Source: Arenibacter sp. F20364 (GTDB lineage Bacteria; Bacteroidota; Bacteroidia; Flavobacteriales; Flavobacteriaceae). From it: a DNA stretch of 64,000 nucleotides. Below are positions 27,988-34,996 of this stretch, piece after piece; within the stretch, counting starts at the first letter, position 1; each line of letters starts with the position of its first letter. The notes under the pieces are model-generated. The model saw only the letters and a program-made list of their open reading frames with translations. It was not told the origin of the DNA and ran no database searches. The position numbers were made by a program, and so were the translations under genes. Location: assembly GCF_023015905.1 (NCBI RefSeq), contig NZ_JALKBD010000018.1, forward strand, positions 1 to 64,000, read 5' to 3'.

Positions 27988-28007
27988 ATTTTTTACGTAA
28001 CACAGGT

Positions 28008-28037
28008 TTGTAAATTTGAAATTCCTTCTTATATTTG
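28008..28037 (+). promoter_or_regulatory. Promoter of the trp operon
   Basis: TTG (28008-28010, preceded by T), exactly 19 bases and TATATTTG (28030-28037) make one of the best promoters of the window. The start point would lie near 28043, at or just before the leader peptide ATG, so the leader mRNA may be leaderless. Confidence 0.8.
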
Positions 28038-28044
28038 GCCTGCA

Positions 28045-28101
28045 ATGAGAAACATGGTATCAAATACTTGGTGGTGGAGCAACTTACGAAAAACATCGTG
28101 A
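28045..28101 (+). CDS. trpL: trp operon leader peptide
   Basis: An 18-codon ORF encodes MRNMVSNTWWWSNLRKTS. Three adjacent TGG codons lie at 28069-28077, an extreme bias for the rarest amino acid, directly ahead of a trp biosynthesis operon. The stop codon TGA (28099-28101) lies inside RNA segment 2 of the attenuator, as in enteric trp leaders. A second ATG at 28054 is a possible alternative start. The peptide itself probably has no function; its translation measures charged tRNA-Trp. Confidence 0.85.
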   Translation: MRNMVSNTWWWSNLRKTS

Positions 28102-28161
28102 GCAAAGCATCATTGTAGTATAACTATATAAAAGGCTTGTCATCACGACAAGCCTTTTTTT
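28083..28161 (+). promoter_or_regulatory. trp attenuator with competing hairpins
   Basis: Four segments are visible. Segment 1 (28083-28089) pairs with segment 2 (28096-28102) in 7 bp. Segment 2, extended to 28097-28108, can instead pair with segment 3 (28135-28147) in about 10 bp with small loops. Segment 3 (28131-28141) pairs with segment 4 (28147-28157) in a perfect 11-bp stem followed by a T run, which is the terminator. A ribosome stalled at the Trp codons would cover segment 1, free segment 2 and prevent termination. Confidence 0.82.
28131..28161 (+). terminator. Terminator of the trp leader (segments 3 and 4)
   Basis: AAAGGCTTGTC, loop ATCAC and GACAAGCCTTT followed by seven T residues form a strong intrinsic terminator 58 bases before trpE. 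Confidence 0.92.
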
Positions 28162-28218: not shown

Positions 28219-29616
28219 ATGAAATACCAGTTAGTATCACATCATAAAAAAATACTTGCGGACACTATTACCCCTGTAAGTGTTTATTTAAAAATTAGAG
28301 ATCGTTTTCCCAACAGTATATTGCTGGAAAGTAGTGACTACCATGCCAACGACAACAGTTTCTCCTATATATGCTGTAATCCCATAGCTTCCATAAAAGT
28401 AGAAAACGAGGTCGTTACAAAGCAATTCCCGGACGGTTCCATTGTGGAAATCAGCATTGATGAACAAACGGACATCCCCAATATTTTGCATGATTTTAGT
28501 CAAAAATTTGAATCCCAGAACAACAACTTTAAGTTTATAAACAATGGTTTGTTCGGGTATATGGCCTATGATGCAGTGCGGTATTTTGAAGACATAGACA
28601 TCTCCAAAAAAAGCAATAGTATCTCCATTCCGGATATCTATTACGCCATTTATCAAAATATAGTGGCCATAAACCATTTCAAAAACGAAGCCTATATTTT
28701 TGCGCACTGTTATGAAACGGAAAATAACATTGGGGAAATAGAACAGATTCTCAACGCCAAAAACTTTGCCTCCTACAATTTTTCCAAAGAAGGAAATCCA
28801 GTCTCCAACTTAAAGGACGAGGAATATAAAGAGCAGGTAGAACTGGCCAAAAAACATTGTAACAGAGGCGATGTTTTTCAGTTGGTTTTGTCCAGAAGGT
28901 TCTCTCAAGAATTTAAGGGGGACGAATTCAACGTTTACAGGGCCCTAAGATCCATAAATCCTTCTCCCTATTTATTTTATTTTGATTATGGGGATTTCAA
29001 AATTTTTGGCAGTTCTCCTGAAGCTCAATTGATAGTAAAAGAGGGCAAGGCAGAAATTCATCCTATTGCAGGAACGTTTAAAAGAACGGGGAACGATGAA
29101 CAGGATGCAGAATTGGCCAAGAAATTAAAAATAGACGACAAAGAGAATAGCGAGCATGTTATGTTGGTAGATCTTGCCAGAAACGATCTAAGCCGAAACG
29201 GCACTATGGTAAAAGTGGAGAACTATAGGGAAGTACAATTCTTTTCCCATGTAATCCATTTGGTTTCCAAGGTAACCGGACAAAAGAAAAAAGACATCCC
29301 TACCATGAAAGTGGTTGCGGATACCTTTCCTGCCGGTACCTTAAGCGGTGCCCCCAAACATATGGCCATGCAACTCATTGAAAGATATGAAAAAACCACT
29401 AGGGGCTATTACGGGGGAGCCATAGGCTTTATGGACTTCCACGGGAATTTTAACCATGCCATAATGATCCGGACCTTTTTAAGTAAGAACCATCAATTGC
29501 ATTACCAGGCCGGTGCAGGTTTGGTAGCCGCTTCCAATCCTGAAAATGAACTTCAGGAAACTTACAACAAACTGGGGGCTTTGACCAAAGCACTTGAAAT
29601 AGCGGAAACCATATAA
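28219..29616 (+). CDS. trpE: Anthranilate synthase component I
   Basis: The 465-residue protein converts chorismate to anthranilate with ammonia supplied by TrpG. The tryptophan feedback motif LLES (residues 34-37) is present in the N-terminal region. The chorismate-binding domain carries GDVFQLVLSRRFSQEF, the segment HPIAGTFKR and the C-terminal GGAIGFMDFHGN and YQAGAGLVAASNPENE. It is the first gene of trpEGDCFBA, downstream of the attenuator, so both its activity and its transcription appear tryptophan-controlled. Confidence 0.97.
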   Translation: MKYQLVSHHKKILADTITPVSVYLKIRDRFPNSILLESSDYHANDNSFSYICCNPIASIKVENEVVTKQFPDGSIVEISIDEQTDIPNILHDFSQKFESQNNNFKFINNGLFGYMAYDAVRYFEDIDISKKSNSISIPDIYYAIYQNIVAINHFKNEAYIFAHCYETENNIGEIEQILNAKNFASYNFSKEGNPVSNLKDEEYKEQVELAKKHCNRGDVFQLVLSRRFSQEFKGDEFNVYRALRSINPSPYLFYFDYGDFKIFGSSPEAQLIVKEGKAEIHPIAGTFKRTGNDEQDAELAKKLKIDDKENSEHVMLVDLARNDLSRNGTMVKVENYREVQFFSHVIHLVSKVTGQKKKDIPTMKVVADTFPAGTLSGAPKHMAMQLIERYEKTTRGYYGGAIGFMDFHGNFNHAIMIRTFLSKNHQLHYQAGAGLVAASNPENELQETYNKLGALTKALEIAETI

Positions 29617-29705
29617 AATTAACTCCAATCAATTTTGCCTTGAACTTAATTGGCAAGGGATACGGCAAGAACAATATAAGATGTTCCAAAGAGGACAACA
29701 ACAGT

Positions 29706-30329
29706 ATGAAAGAAAAGACAGATAATACAGCGAATACCATCCCCCAGGGAACCTCCGTATTGGTTATAGACAATTACGATAGTTTTACGTATAACCTGGT
29801 CCACTATCTGGAGGATCTGGATTGCACCGTAACCGTTAAGAGAAATGACCAAATACATCTCGAGGAAATCGAGGCCTTTGATAAGATCGTTCTTTCCCCT
29901 GGACCAGGTATACCCGATGAGGCAGGTTTGTTGAAAGAGATCATTGAGATGTACGCACCTTCAAAAAGTATATTTGGGGTATGTTTGGGACAGCAGGCCA
30001 TAGCCGAAGTTTTTGGAGGTTCTTTGGTAAATATTGACCAGGTCTACCACGGTATAGCTACCAAAATTGATGTTGTGAAAGACGATATCCTTTTTGAAGG
30101 ATTGCCAAAAGAAATTGAGGTGGGCCGATATCACTCTTGGGTAGTTGATCCAGTACTTCCAGAAATTTTGGAAGCCACCTCGTATGACGAAAATGGACAA
30201 GTAATGTCCTTGCGCCACAAAGTATATGATGTAAGTGCGGTACAGTTTCACCCAGAATCGGTGTTGACTCCACATGGCAAGAAAATATTGGAAAATTGGG
30301 TAACCACCCCTGCTCCTAGCAAAGGATAG
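29706..30329 (+). CDS. trpG: Anthranilate synthase component II (glutamine amidotransferase)
   Basis: This class I amidotransferase supplies ammonia to TrpE. The motif VLVIDNYDSFTYNLVHYLE begins near residue 19; the nucleophile lies in GVCLGQQAIAE, and the catalytic His and Glu in VQFHPESVLTPHG. The start at 29706 (207 residues) leaves an N-terminal tail of about 17 residues that the family usually lacks; an in-frame start at 29640 would make it longer still. The true start is uncertain. Confidence 0.93.
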   Translation: MKEKTDNTANTIPQGTSVLVIDNYDSFTYNLVHYLEDLDCTVTVKRNDQIHLEEIEAFDKIVLSPGPGIPDEAGLLKEIIEMYAPSKSIFGVCLGQQAIAEVFGGSLVNIDQVYHGIATKIDVVKDDILFEGLPKEIEVGRYHSWVVDPVLPEILEATSYDENGQVMSLRHKVYDVSAVQFHPESVLTPHGKKILENWVTTPAPSKG

Positions 30330-30386
30330 AGCCTAATAAAACGAATTTGAGAATTTGTACAAAAATTAAATTTTAACCAAAACAAA

Positions 30387-30419
30387 CCTTTTCCTAAAGA
30401 GAGGGATGGAGAGAGACTT
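30387..30419. repeat. Possible dispersed-repeat fragment in the trpG-trpD gap
   Basis: The purine-rich TTTTCCTAAAGAGAGGGATG resembles a repeat family common between Bacteroidota genes; its minus-strand translation reads SLSLGKG, close to the usual SLGEG form. It also places a GGAG near the trpD start, which may act as a chance ribosome binding site. The family assignment is from recall. Confidence 0.35.
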
Positions 30420-31412
30420 ATGAAAGATATTCTAAACAAACTGATCAATCACGATGTACTTCCAAAAGAGGATGCCAAACAGGTATTGGTCAATATTGCC
30501 AAAGGCGATTACAATACCAGTCAGATTGCCGCCTTTTTAACTGTTTATATGATGCGCAGTGTCACCATAGAGGAGTTGGAAGGTTTTAGAGATGCCTTGT
30601 TAGAGCTATGTTTGGCGGTGGATCTATCCCAGTACAACCCCATTGACCTGTGCGGCACTGGTGGTGACGGCAAGGACACCTTCAATATTTCTACATTGGC
30701 AAGCTTTGTAACGGCGGGGGCCGATGTTAAGGTAACCAAACATGGTAACTACGGAGTTTCGTCCAAATGTGGCAGCAGTAATGTCATGGAATTTTTGGGA
30801 ATTAAATTTAGTAATGATGCCGAATTTCTTGAAAAATGTATCGACGAGGCAGGTATCTGTGTATTGCACGCCCCCTTATTTCACCCGGCTATGAAAAATG
30901 TGGCCCCTATACGTAGGGAATTGGGGGTAAAGACTTTCTTTAATATGTTGGGCCCAATGGTAAATCCGGCCTTCCCAAAGAACCAAATGGTTGGGGTATT
31001 TAATTTGGAATTGGCAAGAATGTATGGCTACCTATACCAAAAGACCGATAAGAATTTTACGGTATTGCACGCCCTGGACGGTTACGATGAAATATCGTTG
31101 ACAGGAAATACAAAAACCATCACCAATCGTTCAGAGGGAATGTTAAAACCTTCAGATTTTGGAGTTGAAACAATCTCCGCATCGGACATCGTTGGTGGAG
31201 ATAGTATTGAAGAATCTGCACAGGTTTTCCTTAATGTTTTACAGGGAAAGGGAAGCACACCCCAGAACAATGTGGTCTGTGCCAATGCAGGTATCGCAAT
31301 AGCCACCGTAAAGGGACTTAGCCCCATGGAAGGTTTTGAAGAAGCCAAGGAATCGTTGCTAAGCGGGCGTGGATTGGCAGCACTTAAAAAATTACAGGCG
31401 TTAAGTAAATAA
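30420..31412 (+). CDS. trpD: Anthranilate phosphoribosyltransferase
   Basis: The 330-residue enzyme joins anthranilate to PRPP. The PRPP and anthranilate sites are clear: CGTGGDGKDTFNIST (residues 78-92), KHGNYGVSSKCGSSNVMEFLG (107-127) and KTFFNMLGPMVNP (near 173). It is not fused to TrpG. It is the third gene of the operon, 90 bases after trpG. Confidence 0.97.
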   Translation: MKDILNKLINHDVLPKEDAKQVLVNIAKGDYNTSQIAAFLTVYMMRSVTIEELEGFRDALLELCLAVDLSQYNPIDLCGTGGDGKDTFNISTLASFVTAGADVKVTKHGNYGVSSKCGSSNVMEFLGIKFSNDAEFLEKCIDEAGICVLHAPLFHPAMKNVAPIRRELGVKTFFNMLGPMVNPAFPKNQMVGVFNLELARMYGYLYQKTDKNFTVLHALDGYDEISLTGNTKTITNRSEGMLKPSDFGVETISASDIVGGDSIEESAQVFLNVLQGKGSTPQNNVVCANAGIAIATVKGLSPMEGFEEAKESLLSGRGLAALKKLQALSK

Positions 31413-31456
31413 ATTAATAATAAAATGGCTTGGAGTAAGCCAGCTTAATAGTTGCG

Positions 31457-32239
31457 ATGAATATACTGGACAAAATAGTTTTGGATAAGAGAAAGGAAGT
31501 CGATTTAAAAAAATCGATTATCCCGGTTTCCCAGTTGGAAGCCTCCGTATTGTTTCACAGGCCCACGGTTTCCTTGGCAAATGCCTTAAAAAACAGTCAA
31601 AGTGGGATTATCGCAGAACACAAACGCAGGTCTCCGTCCAAATCTGTCATCAATCAAAACAACAGCGTTGCAGATGTAGCTGTGGGTTACGAAAAAGCAG
31701 GAGCCTGTGGCATGTCCGTTTTAACCGACGGAAAATATTTTGGAGGTTCCCTAGACGATCTATTGTTGGCCAGGGCATCGGTACAAATGCCCTTGCTCCG
31801 CAAGGAATTTATCATTGACGAGTATCAATTATTGGAGGCAAAGGCATTTGGTGCGGACGTTATATTATTGATTGCTGCCATTTTGACCCGAGATGAGATA
31901 AAAGCGTTTTCAGAATTTGCCAAAAAATTGCATTTGGATGTATTGTTGGAAGTCCATGACGAACGGGAATTACAGAAATCCATTATGCCCAGCTTGGATA
32001 TGCTGGGCGTTAACAATCGCAATTTAAAGACTTTCGAAGTAAGTCTGGATACTAGCAAAACGCTATCGAAATTAATTCCTGACGATTTTGTGAAGGTTTC
32101 CGAAAGCGGAATAAGCTCCACCGCAGCCATTCAAGAATTAAGACCCTTTGGATATAAAGGATTTTTAATTGGTGAAAATTTTATGAAAACGGACAATCCT
32201 GGAGAGAGTGCCCTTCAGTTTATTAAATCGATTAACTAA
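31457..32239 (+). CDS. trpC: Indole-3-glycerol phosphate synthase
   Basis: The 260-residue TIM-barrel enzyme closes the indole ring. The catalytic loop AEHKRRSPSKS (residues 53-63), the LRKEFIIDEYQ strand and LGVNNRNLKTFEVS, SESGI are diagnostic. It follows trpD by 44 bases and is separate from TrpF, unlike the fused enzyme of E. coli. Confidence 0.97.
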   Translation: MNILDKIVLDKRKEVDLKKSIIPVSQLEASVLFHRPTVSLANALKNSQSGIIAEHKRRSPSKSVINQNNSVADVAVGYEKAGACGMSVLTDGKYFGGSLDDLLLARASVQMPLLRKEFIIDEYQLLEAKAFGADVILLIAAILTRDEIKAFSEFAKKLHLDVLLEVHDERELQKSIMPSLDMLGVNNRNLKTFEVSLDTSKTLSKLIPDDFVKVSESGISSTAAIQELRPFGYKGFLIGENFMKTDNPGESALQFIKSIN

Positions 32240-32253
32240 AGAACAAAATAGCC

Positions 32254-32907
32254 ATGAAACTGAAAGTGTGTGGAATGAAAATGAATACCTTGGAGGTGGC
32301 CACCCTTAATCCAGATTATCTTGGCTTTATATTTTGGGAACCCTCCAAAAGATTTTTTAAGGGAACTATGCCCGAATTACCAACTTCCATTAAAAAAGTA
32401 GGTGTCTTTGTAGATGCTTCCTTGGAAGAAATTATGGAACAGATCTTCACCCATGGTCTGAAGGCAGTGCAATTGCACGGCAATGAAAGCCCGGAATACT
32501 GTGGCACCCTGAAAAAATCAACAAACGACAGTTCTAAAGCTTTAGGGGTGACCAACTTAGAAATCATCAAAGTATTCTCTATAAAAGATGATTTTGATTT
32601 TAGTATTTTGACTCCCTATGAAGCTGTATGCGATTTTTATCTTTTTGATACCAAAGGAAAATTACCCGGAGGCAATGGATTCACCTTTTGTTGGGAAGTC
32701 CTAAAAAACTATCCATCCACCAAGCCTTATTTTTTAAGTGGGGGAATAGGTTTGGATGAAATCAAAAAAATAAAGGAATTTCAACAAAGACCGGAATCCA
32801 AATATTGTTACGCCATTGATGTCAATAGTAAATTTGAAACGGAACCGGGTTTAAAGGATGTTGAGCAATTGAAAAAGTTTAAAAAAGAAGTAGTGAAAAG
32901 TGAGTAG
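32254..32907 (+). CDS. trpF: Phosphoribosylanthranilate isomerase
   Basis: The 217-residue TIM-barrel enzyme performs the Amadori rearrangement before TrpC. The catalytic cysteine lies in KVCGMK (residues 3-8) and the general acid in YLFDTKGKLPGGNG; LSGGI and DVNSKFETEPGLKD bind phosphate near the C-terminus. GLKD carries a Ser-to-Glu-Pro variation typical of Bacteroidota. It starts 14 bases after trpC. Confidence 0.95.
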   Translation: MKLKVCGMKMNTLEVATLNPDYLGFIFWEPSKRFFKGTMPELPTSIKKVGVFVDASLEEIMEQIFTHGLKAVQLHGNESPEYCGTLKKSTNDSSKALGVTNLEIIKVFSIKDDFDFSILTPYEAVCDFYLFDTKGKLPGGNGFTFCWEVLKNYPSTKPYFLSGGIGLDEIKKIKEFQQRPESKYCYAIDVNSKFETEPGLKDVEQLKKFKKEVVKSE

Positions 32908-32923
32908 TGAATATTGGGGCGGT

Positions 32924-32957
32924 ATGTTATAGTAGGCAGTGACAGTTGGCGGTAGAC
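32924..32957 (+). repeat. Degenerate GGCAGT-type repeat in the trpF-trpB gap
   Basis: GTAGGCAGTGACAGTTGGCG contains two to three imperfect GGCAGT/GACAGT units. Similar short arrays occur between genes of flavobacteria. It is too short and worn to be a functional array. Confidence 0.35.
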
Positions 32958-33001
32958 TATAAAACATTAATATCCCAACACTGATATCTAAATAAAGAAC
33001 A

Positions 33002-34183
33002 ATGAATTACAACGTAGACGAAAAAGGATATTATGGAGAATTCGGCGGAGCTTATATTCCCGAAATGCTCTACCCTAATGTTGAAAACCTTAGACAGCAG
33101 TATCTGGAAATAATGGCGGAACCTTCCTTTAAAAAGGAATTCGATCAATTATTGAAAGATTACGTAGGCAGGCCTTCTCCCCTGTATTTTGCCAAACGTT
33201 TATCCGAAAAGTATAACACCAAGGTATATTTGAAGCGGGAAGACCTTAATCATACCGGTGCACATAAGGTAAATAACACCATTGGTCAGATATTAATGGC
33301 CAAGCGCTTGGGCAAGACTAGGGTCATTGCCGAAACTGGTGCCGGTCAGCACGGCGTGGCCACTGCTACGGTATGTGCCCTTATGGGCATGGAGTGCATC
33401 GTTTATATGGGTGAAATAGATATTGCCAGGCAAGCACCCAATGTTGCCCGTATGAAAATGCTGGGAGCAGAGGTAAGACCTGCATTATCCGGTAGCAGGA
33501 CCCTAAAGGATGCTACCAATGAGGCCATTAGGGACTGGATCAATAACCCCGTGGATACCCATTATATTATTGGATCTGCCATAGGGCCACATCCCTACCC
33601 GGATATGGTGACCAGATTTCAGTCCATTATTTCCGAAGAGATAAAATGGCAATTGAAGGAAAAAGAAGGCAGGGAAAATCCTGATTATGTAGTTGCTTGT
33701 ATAGGTGGCGGTAGTAATGCTGCTGGCACCTTCTATCATTTTCTACACGAAAAGGAAGTGGGCATTATAGCTGTGGAAGCTGCCGGACATGGCGTGGACA
33801 GCGGTGAAAGTGCCGCAACCTCTGTTCTTGGAAAAATGGGGATTATACACGGCTGCAAAACCTTATTGATGCAAACTGCCGATGGACAGATTACAGAGCC
33901 CTATTCCATTTCTGCAGGACTGGATTATCCTGGGGTCGGTCCCATGCATGCGCATCTGTACAAAACGGGCAGGGCCGAGTTTATTGCCGTAACGGACGAC
34001 GAAGCTATGCATGCCGGGATGGTATTGTCCAAATTGGAAGGGATTATTCCCGCCATTGAATCCTCACATGCGTTTGCCATTTTGGAAACCAGAAAATTCC
34101 GACCAGACGATGTAGTAGTCTTTAACCTATCGGGCCGTGGGGATAAGGATTTGGATACGTATATAAAATATTTTAAACTGTAA
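33002..34183 (+). CDS. trpB: Tryptophan synthase beta chain
   Basis: The 393-residue PLP enzyme makes tryptophan from indole and serine. The PLP lysine is Lys89 in [14 protein letters not shown], the phosphate-binding loop is [10 protein letters not shown], and GETGAGQHG-type residues ([13 protein letters not shown]) lie near 115-125. It is the canonical TrpB1 type that pairs with TrpA, whose gene follows after 48 bases. Confidence 0.98.
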
Positions 34184-34193
34184 ACTTCTTTGG

Positions 34194-34214
34194 CATTCCC
34201 GCAAAATGGGAATG
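34194..34214 (+). repeat. Hairpin with ATTCCC/GGGAAT arms in the trpB-trpA gap
   Basis: CATTCCC and GGGAATG flank a 7-base loop just before the trpA start. It resembles the palindrome at 35239-35258 and may be a worn copy of the same dispersed repeat. Confidence 0.4.
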
Positions 34215-34231
34215 AAAAAAATATAACTGGA

Positions 34232-34996
34232 ATGAACAGAATTCATCAAAAATTACAAGAGGACCAAAAATTATTATCCATATATTTTACCGCTGGTTAC
34301 CCTTCTTTAAACGATACGGCAAAAATTATCCAAGACCTCGAAAAAAACGGCGTGGATATGATCGAGATCGGATTGCCTTTTAGTGATCCGTTGGCAGATG
34401 GCCCCACCATACAGGCAAGCTCTACCCACGCCCTGAAGAATGGGATGACTACCGAAATATTATTTCAGCAGTTAAAGGATATTAGAAAAACTGTTTCCAT
34501 GCCCTTGATCCTTATGGGTTATTTCAACCCCGTTCTGCAATATGGGGTAGCCGAATTTTGCAAAAAATGTCAGGAAACTGGAATAGACGGACTTATTTTA
34601 CCCGATTTGCCATTAGACGTTTACCAGAAAGAGTATGAAGCTATTTTTAAGAAATATGGCCTTGTCAATATTTTCTTGATTACCCCACAAACAAGTGATG
34701 CCCGTATCCAACAAATCGATGCTGCTTCAGACGGATTTATTTATATGGTAAGTTCCGCAAGCGTAACGGGTTCCCAAGATGGTTTCGGCAATAGCCAGGA
34801 ATCGTACTTTAAACGAATCGCCGGTATGAAATTAAAAAACCCACAGGTAGTAGGGTTTGGAATAAGCAATTCTGAAACCTTCCGGCAAGCTACCAAACAG
34901 GCAAAGGGAGCCATTATAGGCTCGGCCTTTATTAAATTTCTGACACAAAATGGTGTAGATAAAATTGGGGATTTTGTGAAGGGAATTCGAAAATAG
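34232..34996 (+). CDS. trpA: Tryptophan synthase alpha chain
   Basis: The 254-residue TIM-barrel enzyme cleaves indole-3-glycerol phosphate and passes indole to TrpB. The catalytic Glu45 lies in VDMIEIGLPFSDP and Asp56 in PLADGP; SSASVTGSQ and GFGIS bind phosphate. The ATG at 34232 fits the family start; an in-frame TTG at 34190 would lie inside a hairpin and is rejected. It is the last enzyme gene of the trp operon. Confidence 0.96.
   Translation: MNRIHQKLQEDQKLLSIYFTAGYPSLNDTAKIIQDLEKNGVDMIEIGLPFSDPLADGPTIQASSTHALKNGMTTEILFQQLKDIRKTVSMPLILMGYFNPVLQYGVAEFCKKCQETGIDGLILPDLPLDVYQKEYEAIFKKYGLVNIFLITPQTSDARIQQIDAASDGFIYMVSSASVTGSQDGFGNSQESYFKRIAGMKLKNPQVVGFGISNSETFRQATKQAKGAIIGSAFIKFLTQNGVDKIGDFVKGIRK

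Follow-up and report, generated by a model that had tools for sequence, protein, structure and literature searches.

The window, by which we mean the whole 64,000-nt stretch of DNA that was analysed, carries a tryptophan operon on its + strand (28219-34996), in which seven ORFs match the profile models of trpE, trpG, trpD, trpC, trpF, trpB and trpA. The matches of trpE (9e-130) and trpF (2e-34) fall under the curated cut-offs of single models, and the nearest named TrpE proteins are those of Arenibacter (five records, 95-96% identity), which makes Arenibacter or a close relative the most probable source of the window. Direct reading of the region upstream of trpE bore out the promoter, the 18-codon ORF with three TGG codons and the hairpins that a preliminary description of this DNA had reported there, all on the + strand. 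The promoter comprises a -33 TTTG (28007-28010), 19 nt before the -7 element TATATTTG (28030-28037). Transcription is predicted to start at 28042-28043, following the distance of 4-5 nt from TAHHTTTG to the start point that the accessible text of PMC6847099 gives for probable promoters of F. johnsoniae. The leader ORF, MRNMVSNTWWWSNLRKTS (28045-28101, ATG at 28045 and TGA at 28099-28101), has 18 codons and a stop, and contains the Trp codons TGG TGG TGG at 28069-28077. This ATG-started frame was taken as the leader ORF and a longer, GTG-started frame was set aside.

Downstream of the Trp codons, segment 1 (CTTACGA, 28083-28089) and segment 2 (TCGTGAG, 28096-28102) form a 1:2 hairpin of 7 bp (28083-28102), with the leader stop codon inside segment 2, both as initially described. 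An outer stem (28064-28076 with 28108-28121), which is the stem drawn by Rfam, buries the Trp codons when the RNA is ribosome-free. The intrinsic terminator (28130-28161) consists of an ascending arm (28130-28141), a loop with the sequence ATCAC (28142-28146), a descending arm (28147-28158) and a T run (28155-28161). This 3:4 hairpin and its T run had been recognized before, with a stem counted as 11 bp; we find 12 bp. The ATG of trpE at 28219 lies 57 nt beyond the T run, and not 58. The 123-nt leader has a folding energy of -37.2 kcal/mol, as opposed to a mean of -20.4 for shuffled sequences (z = -5.47), and is more stable than 200 of 200 shuffles. We also observed that the terminator sequence at 28134-28154 (GGCTTGTC-loop-GACARGCC) occurs at one place in its own genome and is nearly invariant over the family. 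Pairing alone is insufficient to explain the near-invariance of the outer terminator arm.

The element matches the covariance model of RF01692 (Bacteroid-trp) at 28025-28141, with 53.9 bits against a cut-off of 49, upstream of the trp genes, and this match is the single one in its own genome. The attenuator class is therefore not new, and the earlier suspicion that it had perhaps been predicted already was correct. RF01692 is present in 109 of the 149 genera of the family (95 of them above the cut-off). Within the phylum, 30 of 296 genomes have it, and 28 of these, the window's own included, belong to the window's family. The Rfam alignment starts at the promoter edge, takes in the leader and one long stem, and ends in the ascending arm of the terminator. 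In the accessible part of Weinberg et al. 2010 (PMC2864571), a table gives the motif as cis-regulatory in Bacteroidetes. The available passages of a 2019 paper (PMC6414381) compare the trp motif of F. psychrophilum to E. coli attenuation and propose a Trp-rich leader, and those of a 2021 transcriptome of the same species (PMC9723704) speak of strong clues for leader-peptide attenuation before amino-acid operons. The main text of a 2010 screen for premature terminators (PMC2965389), in the portion accessible, has no words starting with 'bacteroid' or 'flavobact'. Searches of open-licence papers, within the text these made available, turned up no experiment that tested a trp attenuator from Bacteroidota. 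Attenuation is a textbook mechanism whose experimental support comes, to our knowledge, from few phyla.

Conservation was assessed on a sample independent of Rfam, with TrpE as the probe. TrpE was found in 136 of the 149 genera, and 132 upstream regions, together with the window, gave 133 loci; the partial TrpE matches of G066, G079 and G147 were omitted. A short ORF with at least two tandem Trp codons lies upstream of trpE in 131 of the 133 loci (128 when only ATG starts are allowed), compared with a mean of 1.4 over 20 rounds of shuffling, none of which gave more than 4, and with 3 when the opposite strand was read. At least three consecutive Trp codons occur in 116 of the loci and in none of the shuffles. 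The two loci without a leader are L181, where the contig starts at the TGG run, and L278, which has a coding stretch upstream. This degree of conservation of the tandem-Trp leader, established in silico, appears to be new here. A WWW leader is also present in 80 of 80 named relatives, which are near kin because they were taken as the best 80 of 574; it is within 450 nt of trpE in 73 of them and farther away in 7. In seven named loci (L067, L084, L098, L100, L120, L123 and L134) an insert separates the attenuator from trpE. The inserts contain an ORF of 94 aa in five loci, one of 71 aa in L067 and none above 60 aa in L134; the insert ORF of L084 matches Pfam GIY-YIG (9e-15), and short palindromes are visible by eye at both sides of the inserts.

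Base pairing was followed in a sequence-only alignment of 129 loci, from which L181 and L278 were left out for lack of a leader, and L264 and L272 because the script found no hairpin, imperfect ones being visible. In this set the terminator is paired in 96% of cells, with 47 both-sided changes against a shuffled mean of 5, and none of 500 shuffles reaches this number. UCGUGA in segment 2 (28096-28101) can pair with its predicted target UCACGA (28143-28148), made up of four bases of the loop followed by the two that begin the descending arm. Each of these six core pairs is formed in about 90-98% of the 129 loci, and with one flanking pair per end 83% of the cells are paired. The antiterminator has 17 both-sided changes (shuffled mean 4.5; reached by 0 of 500 shuffles); versions of it slid along the alignment are 20-58% paired, one of them (42% paired) with 25 both-sided cells, more than the 17. 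Of the checks in relatives that the preliminary description had proposed, conservation was found for the TGG runs, and covariation for the terminator and the antiterminator; the 1:2 stem is paired in 55% of cells with 71 both-sided changes, compared to 54% and 77 in one slid version.

In the window itself, the 1:2 hairpin forms with a computed probability of 0.92. The competing fold has 6 bp plus 4 bp and an energy of -15.5 kcal/mol. A pairing of about 10 bp had been noted earlier as '2:3'; the pairing exists, but its 6-bp core engages the loop and descending arm at 28143-28148 rather than segment 3. It shares 28147-28148 with the terminator stem, and the two structures exclude each other. Taken alone, the 6-bp antiterminator of the window does not stand out from shuffles (p = 0.22); equally good pairing is given by 48 of 60 foreign leaders. 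Both this pairing and the promoter spacing discussed below are unremarkable in one sequence; it is the conservation that carries both.

The site contacted by segment 2 was also sought without an alignment. In 117 of the 129 loci the best leader complement within the terminator falls mostly on the loop; the descending arm accounts for 10 loci and the ascending arm for 2. With the eight bases before the stem added, the counts become 114, 10 and 4, with one before the stem. A single-locus shuffle test gave p≤0.05 in 41 of the 129 loci. More weight attaches to the 21 loci that lack UCACGA, in which we compared each locus' own leader with permuted leaders. As a set, the own leaders were the better match to loop and descending arm, equalled in 0 of 5000 permutations within the 21 and in 1 of 5000 drawn from all loci. 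Two of the loci, L253 (11 bp) and L280 (7 bp), are each fitted solely by their own leader among the 129. Part of the 8-bp match of L270 falls in the ascending arm; scored on loop and descending arm only, this leader ranks 10th. Several divergent genera depart from the loop contact, and in L254, L260, L263, L275 and L276 the own-loop fit ranks 114-127 of 129, below most foreign leaders.

An alternative is the classical enteric geometry, assumed in the preliminary description, in which antitermination depends on segment 2 pairing with the ascending arm, the match to the loop being secondary. The best competing fold of the window does gain 4 bp in the ascending arm (AAGC with GCUU), and contacts of this type exist elsewhere. 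The same method, applied to E. coli trp, returns the ascending arm (CGGGC with GCCCG), and it does so for 28 of 29 his leaders of the window's own family; the method can therefore detect the classical geometry. An ascending-arm type is also found in L056, from another family of the same order (-12.8 kcal/mol vs -5.4 for loop and descending arm), so the geometry varies between lineages. For the trp leaders of the family, however, this alternative seems unlikely, given that the ascending arm holds the best complement in so few loci, and that own leaders show no preference for their own ascending arm (permuted leaders are as good in 4978 and 4999 of 5000 rounds). In the window, contact with the ascending arm is worth -4.7 kcal/mol, against -7.8 for loop and descending arm. 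Loop and descending arm are likewise preferred (-11.8 vs -6.3 kcal/mol) in L036, which belongs to another family within the class and is very different in sequence. The RF01692 element of L036, which has a WW leader and a different terminator, precedes by eye a TrpB-like start and not trpE.

Folding with a ribosome placed on the leader gave outcomes that depend on its position. In our model the RNA is kept single-stranded as far as 15 nt beyond the P site and ends 4 bases into the descending arm. In free RNA the antiterminator of the window has a probability of 0.06. When the A site is occupied by Trp codon 1, 2 or 3 this becomes 0.45, 0.95 or 0.97, and with the ribosome at the stop codon 0.00; nowhere ahead of the second Trp codon does it exceed 0.47. 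The corresponding means over 126 loci (L192, L212 and L237, without a promoter followed by an ATG, were left out) are 0.26 in free RNA, 0.91, 0.94 and 0.95 at the three Trp codons and 0.02 at the stop. Ahead of the first Trp codon the family mean is 0.42 at six codons, 0.77 at two and 0.82 at one; it is about 0.9 for the first Trp codon and the next five codons, then drops to 0.30 at the sixth codon after it and to 0.00 at the seventh. The open zone thus has a sharp edge downstream but none upstream. When the sequence between the Trp codons and the hairpin is shuffled, the mean of 0.94 for the second Trp codon (126 loci) falls to 0.17. In the complete RNA the terminator always wins, with the antiterminator at 0.00-0.02, and the switch must therefore be kinetic, decided during transcription.

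The best reading of these data, as the preliminary description had also proposed and as the relatives and the folding suggest, is a ribosome-mediated transcription attenuator that senses tryptophan and belongs to the Rfam class Bacteroid-trp; we assign this reading a probability of roughly 0.85. According to this model, polymerase would start 2-3 nt before the leader AUG, at the start point predicted above, so that the ribosome would load near the 5' end and trail the polymerase. When charged tRNA-Trp is ample, the ribosome would reach the stop codon and mask segment 2, and the terminator would form before trpE. When it is scarce, the ribosome would halt at the Trp codons (in the window, the second or third) and mask segment 1, leaving UCGUGA of segment 2 free to capture UCACGA as it emerges while the polymerase nears the U tract. 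We infer that UCACGA, which ends at 28148, leaves the polymerase at about the time when the latter is on the U tract. Because of this capture the hairpin would fail to nucleate, and trpEGDCFBA would be transcribed. If the leader is not translated, the 1:2 hairpin is expected to form and the operon to be off. The loop contact would also account for the near-invariant loop and leader stop region.

One may further consider that the leader RNA and its peptide act also, or mainly, in trans, as in S. meliloti, where the available text of PMC7298713 reports trans roles for rnTrpL and its peptide, made from a leaderless trpL. Such action would account for the near-invariant leader sequence, and it is in its favour that the terminator GGCUUGUC...GACARGCC, at a single place in its own genome, is yet near-invariant in the family beyond what pairing demands. 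However, the position of the leader directly before trpE and its stall-dependent folding suit control in cis, and we regard a trans role as improbable. It is very improbable that tryptophan is sensed without translation, through a T-box, a TRAP-like protein or a riboswitch, with the Trp codons being incidental, and these readings were rejected in view of the tandem Trp codons conserved in 131 of 133 loci, the gathering-threshold Rfam matches of the window, which are five tRNAs and RF01692 with no T-box or riboswitch among them, and the lack of a NAG-repeat array in the window by eye.

A perfect TAHHTTTG precedes 124 of the 131 leaders of the family sample, and the gap between it and the ATG is 4-5 nt in 31 loci, 6-8 nt in 13, 9-12 nt in 21, 13-22 nt in 54 and of other lengths in 5. 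In the named loci the gap is 4-8 nt in 71 of 73. The window has a gap of 7 nt between TATATTTG and the ATG, so that under the F. johnsoniae rule (PMC6847099, text available in part) its 5' UTR is predicted to be of 2-3 nt. In one genome alone a 7-nt spacing is meaningless, since TAHHTTTG-N7-ATG occurs at 63 places in the window's own genome, as opposed to 57 for the reversed pattern. On a TrpE tree, short spacing (≤8 nt) requires 8 changes, compared with a shuffled mean of 35.5; this was a quick tree of 135 of 138 loci, with 51 of 132 inner branches open and a support of 83 for the window's clade, and the label of L035 (1 nt) on it may reflect a wrong promoter. Within the window's clade the leader AUG is at most 8 nt after TAnnTTTG in 84 of 86 rows, a trait in keeping with the earlier suggestion of a possible translation start without a 5' leader. 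The leader mRNA is thus predicted to be almost leaderless in this clade. By comparison, 87% of predicted F. johnsoniae transcripts have leaders above 10 nt in the accessible text of PMC6847099, and leaderless mRNAs make up 5.5% in that of PMC9723704 on F. psychrophilum. If the sensing ribosome starts at a near-leaderless RNA end, initiation and transcription-translation coupling in Bacteroidota would become testable with one reporter. We know of no Shine-Dalgarno leaders in Bacteroidota.

Other amino-acid leaders in the family were surveyed in the same way. The window's own genome contains another amino-acid attenuator of like build, also near-leaderless by its promoter spacing (L282, G000:C76), in which a His leader before hisG, MKNNRTHHHHFFTCSQAS (HHHH), lies 7 nt after TAATTTTG and is followed by a terminator; its presence speaks in favour of the attenuator reading. 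His-rich leaders precede hisG in 30 of 31 loci, from a sample of 49 hisG genomes of which 30 loci were used in addition to the own genome. The short locus L311 has no leader in reach and L285 no hairpin, which left 29 for the analysis of pairing. Because the his attenuators of the family keep the ascending-arm contact, two switch geometries would be found in one cell. A stretch about 22-27 nt before hisG is complementary, over up to 13-16 bp, to the his terminator in its loop and ascending arm (L284, L286, L293, L295, L298, L304, L306 and others). These downstream matches have p≤0.05 in 17 of 29 loci, as an extra predicted helix, with changed pairs in L284, L286 and L301. In the same genome, a Phe/Tyr-rich ORF, MTKQYFWNGFYFYFFFKGGKGLF, precedes the prephenate dehydratase gene and is followed by a hairpin that resembles a terminator by eye (L314, G000:C138). 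In front of three of the four aspartate-kinase matches (L315-L317), a search for a Thr leader gave no convincing candidate.

Taken together, we lean towards a view in which flavobacterial trp leaders use a '2:loop/4' switch and not a '2:3' one, are near-leaderless and without a Shine-Dalgarno sequence in the clade of Arenibacter, Maribacter and Muricauda, and coexist with his leaders that keep the classical contact. As far as literature searches go, neither the loop-directed antiterminator nor the clade-wide near-leaderless start, both of them predictions made by computation, appears to have been described; a search for antiterminators directed at terminator loops in combination with leader peptides surfaced, in the text accessible, a Listeria review only. 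The loop-directed contact would be a second way of building an attenuation switch.

Comparison with known systems places the window's leader in a recognized class and sets it apart in two respects. RF01692 is the same element in the same position before trp genes, but its Rfam structure draws the outer stem only, and the terminator, the 1:2 switch stem and the antiterminator are absent from that drawing. The proposals for F. psychrophilum (PMC6414381, PMC9723704), a member of the same family, likewise invoke attenuation, through a Trp-rich leader for the trp operon and through leader peptides for amino-acid operons; the antiterminator geometry and the promoter-to-AUG spacing, given here for the window's leader, are absent from the accessible text of these reports. 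In S. meliloti, a member of another phylum, the trpL RNA is leaderless and starts at the leader AUG according to the available text of PMC7298713, whereas the near-leaderless start in the window is predicted from promoter spacing. With E. coli trpL (L319) the window shares tandem Trp codons, mutually exclusive hairpins and a terminator before trpE. In E. coli trpL the 5' UTR is longer and includes a Shine-Dalgarno sequence, and segment 2 pairs with the ascending arm of the terminator, whereas segment 2 of the window is predicted to reach for the loop and the descending arm.
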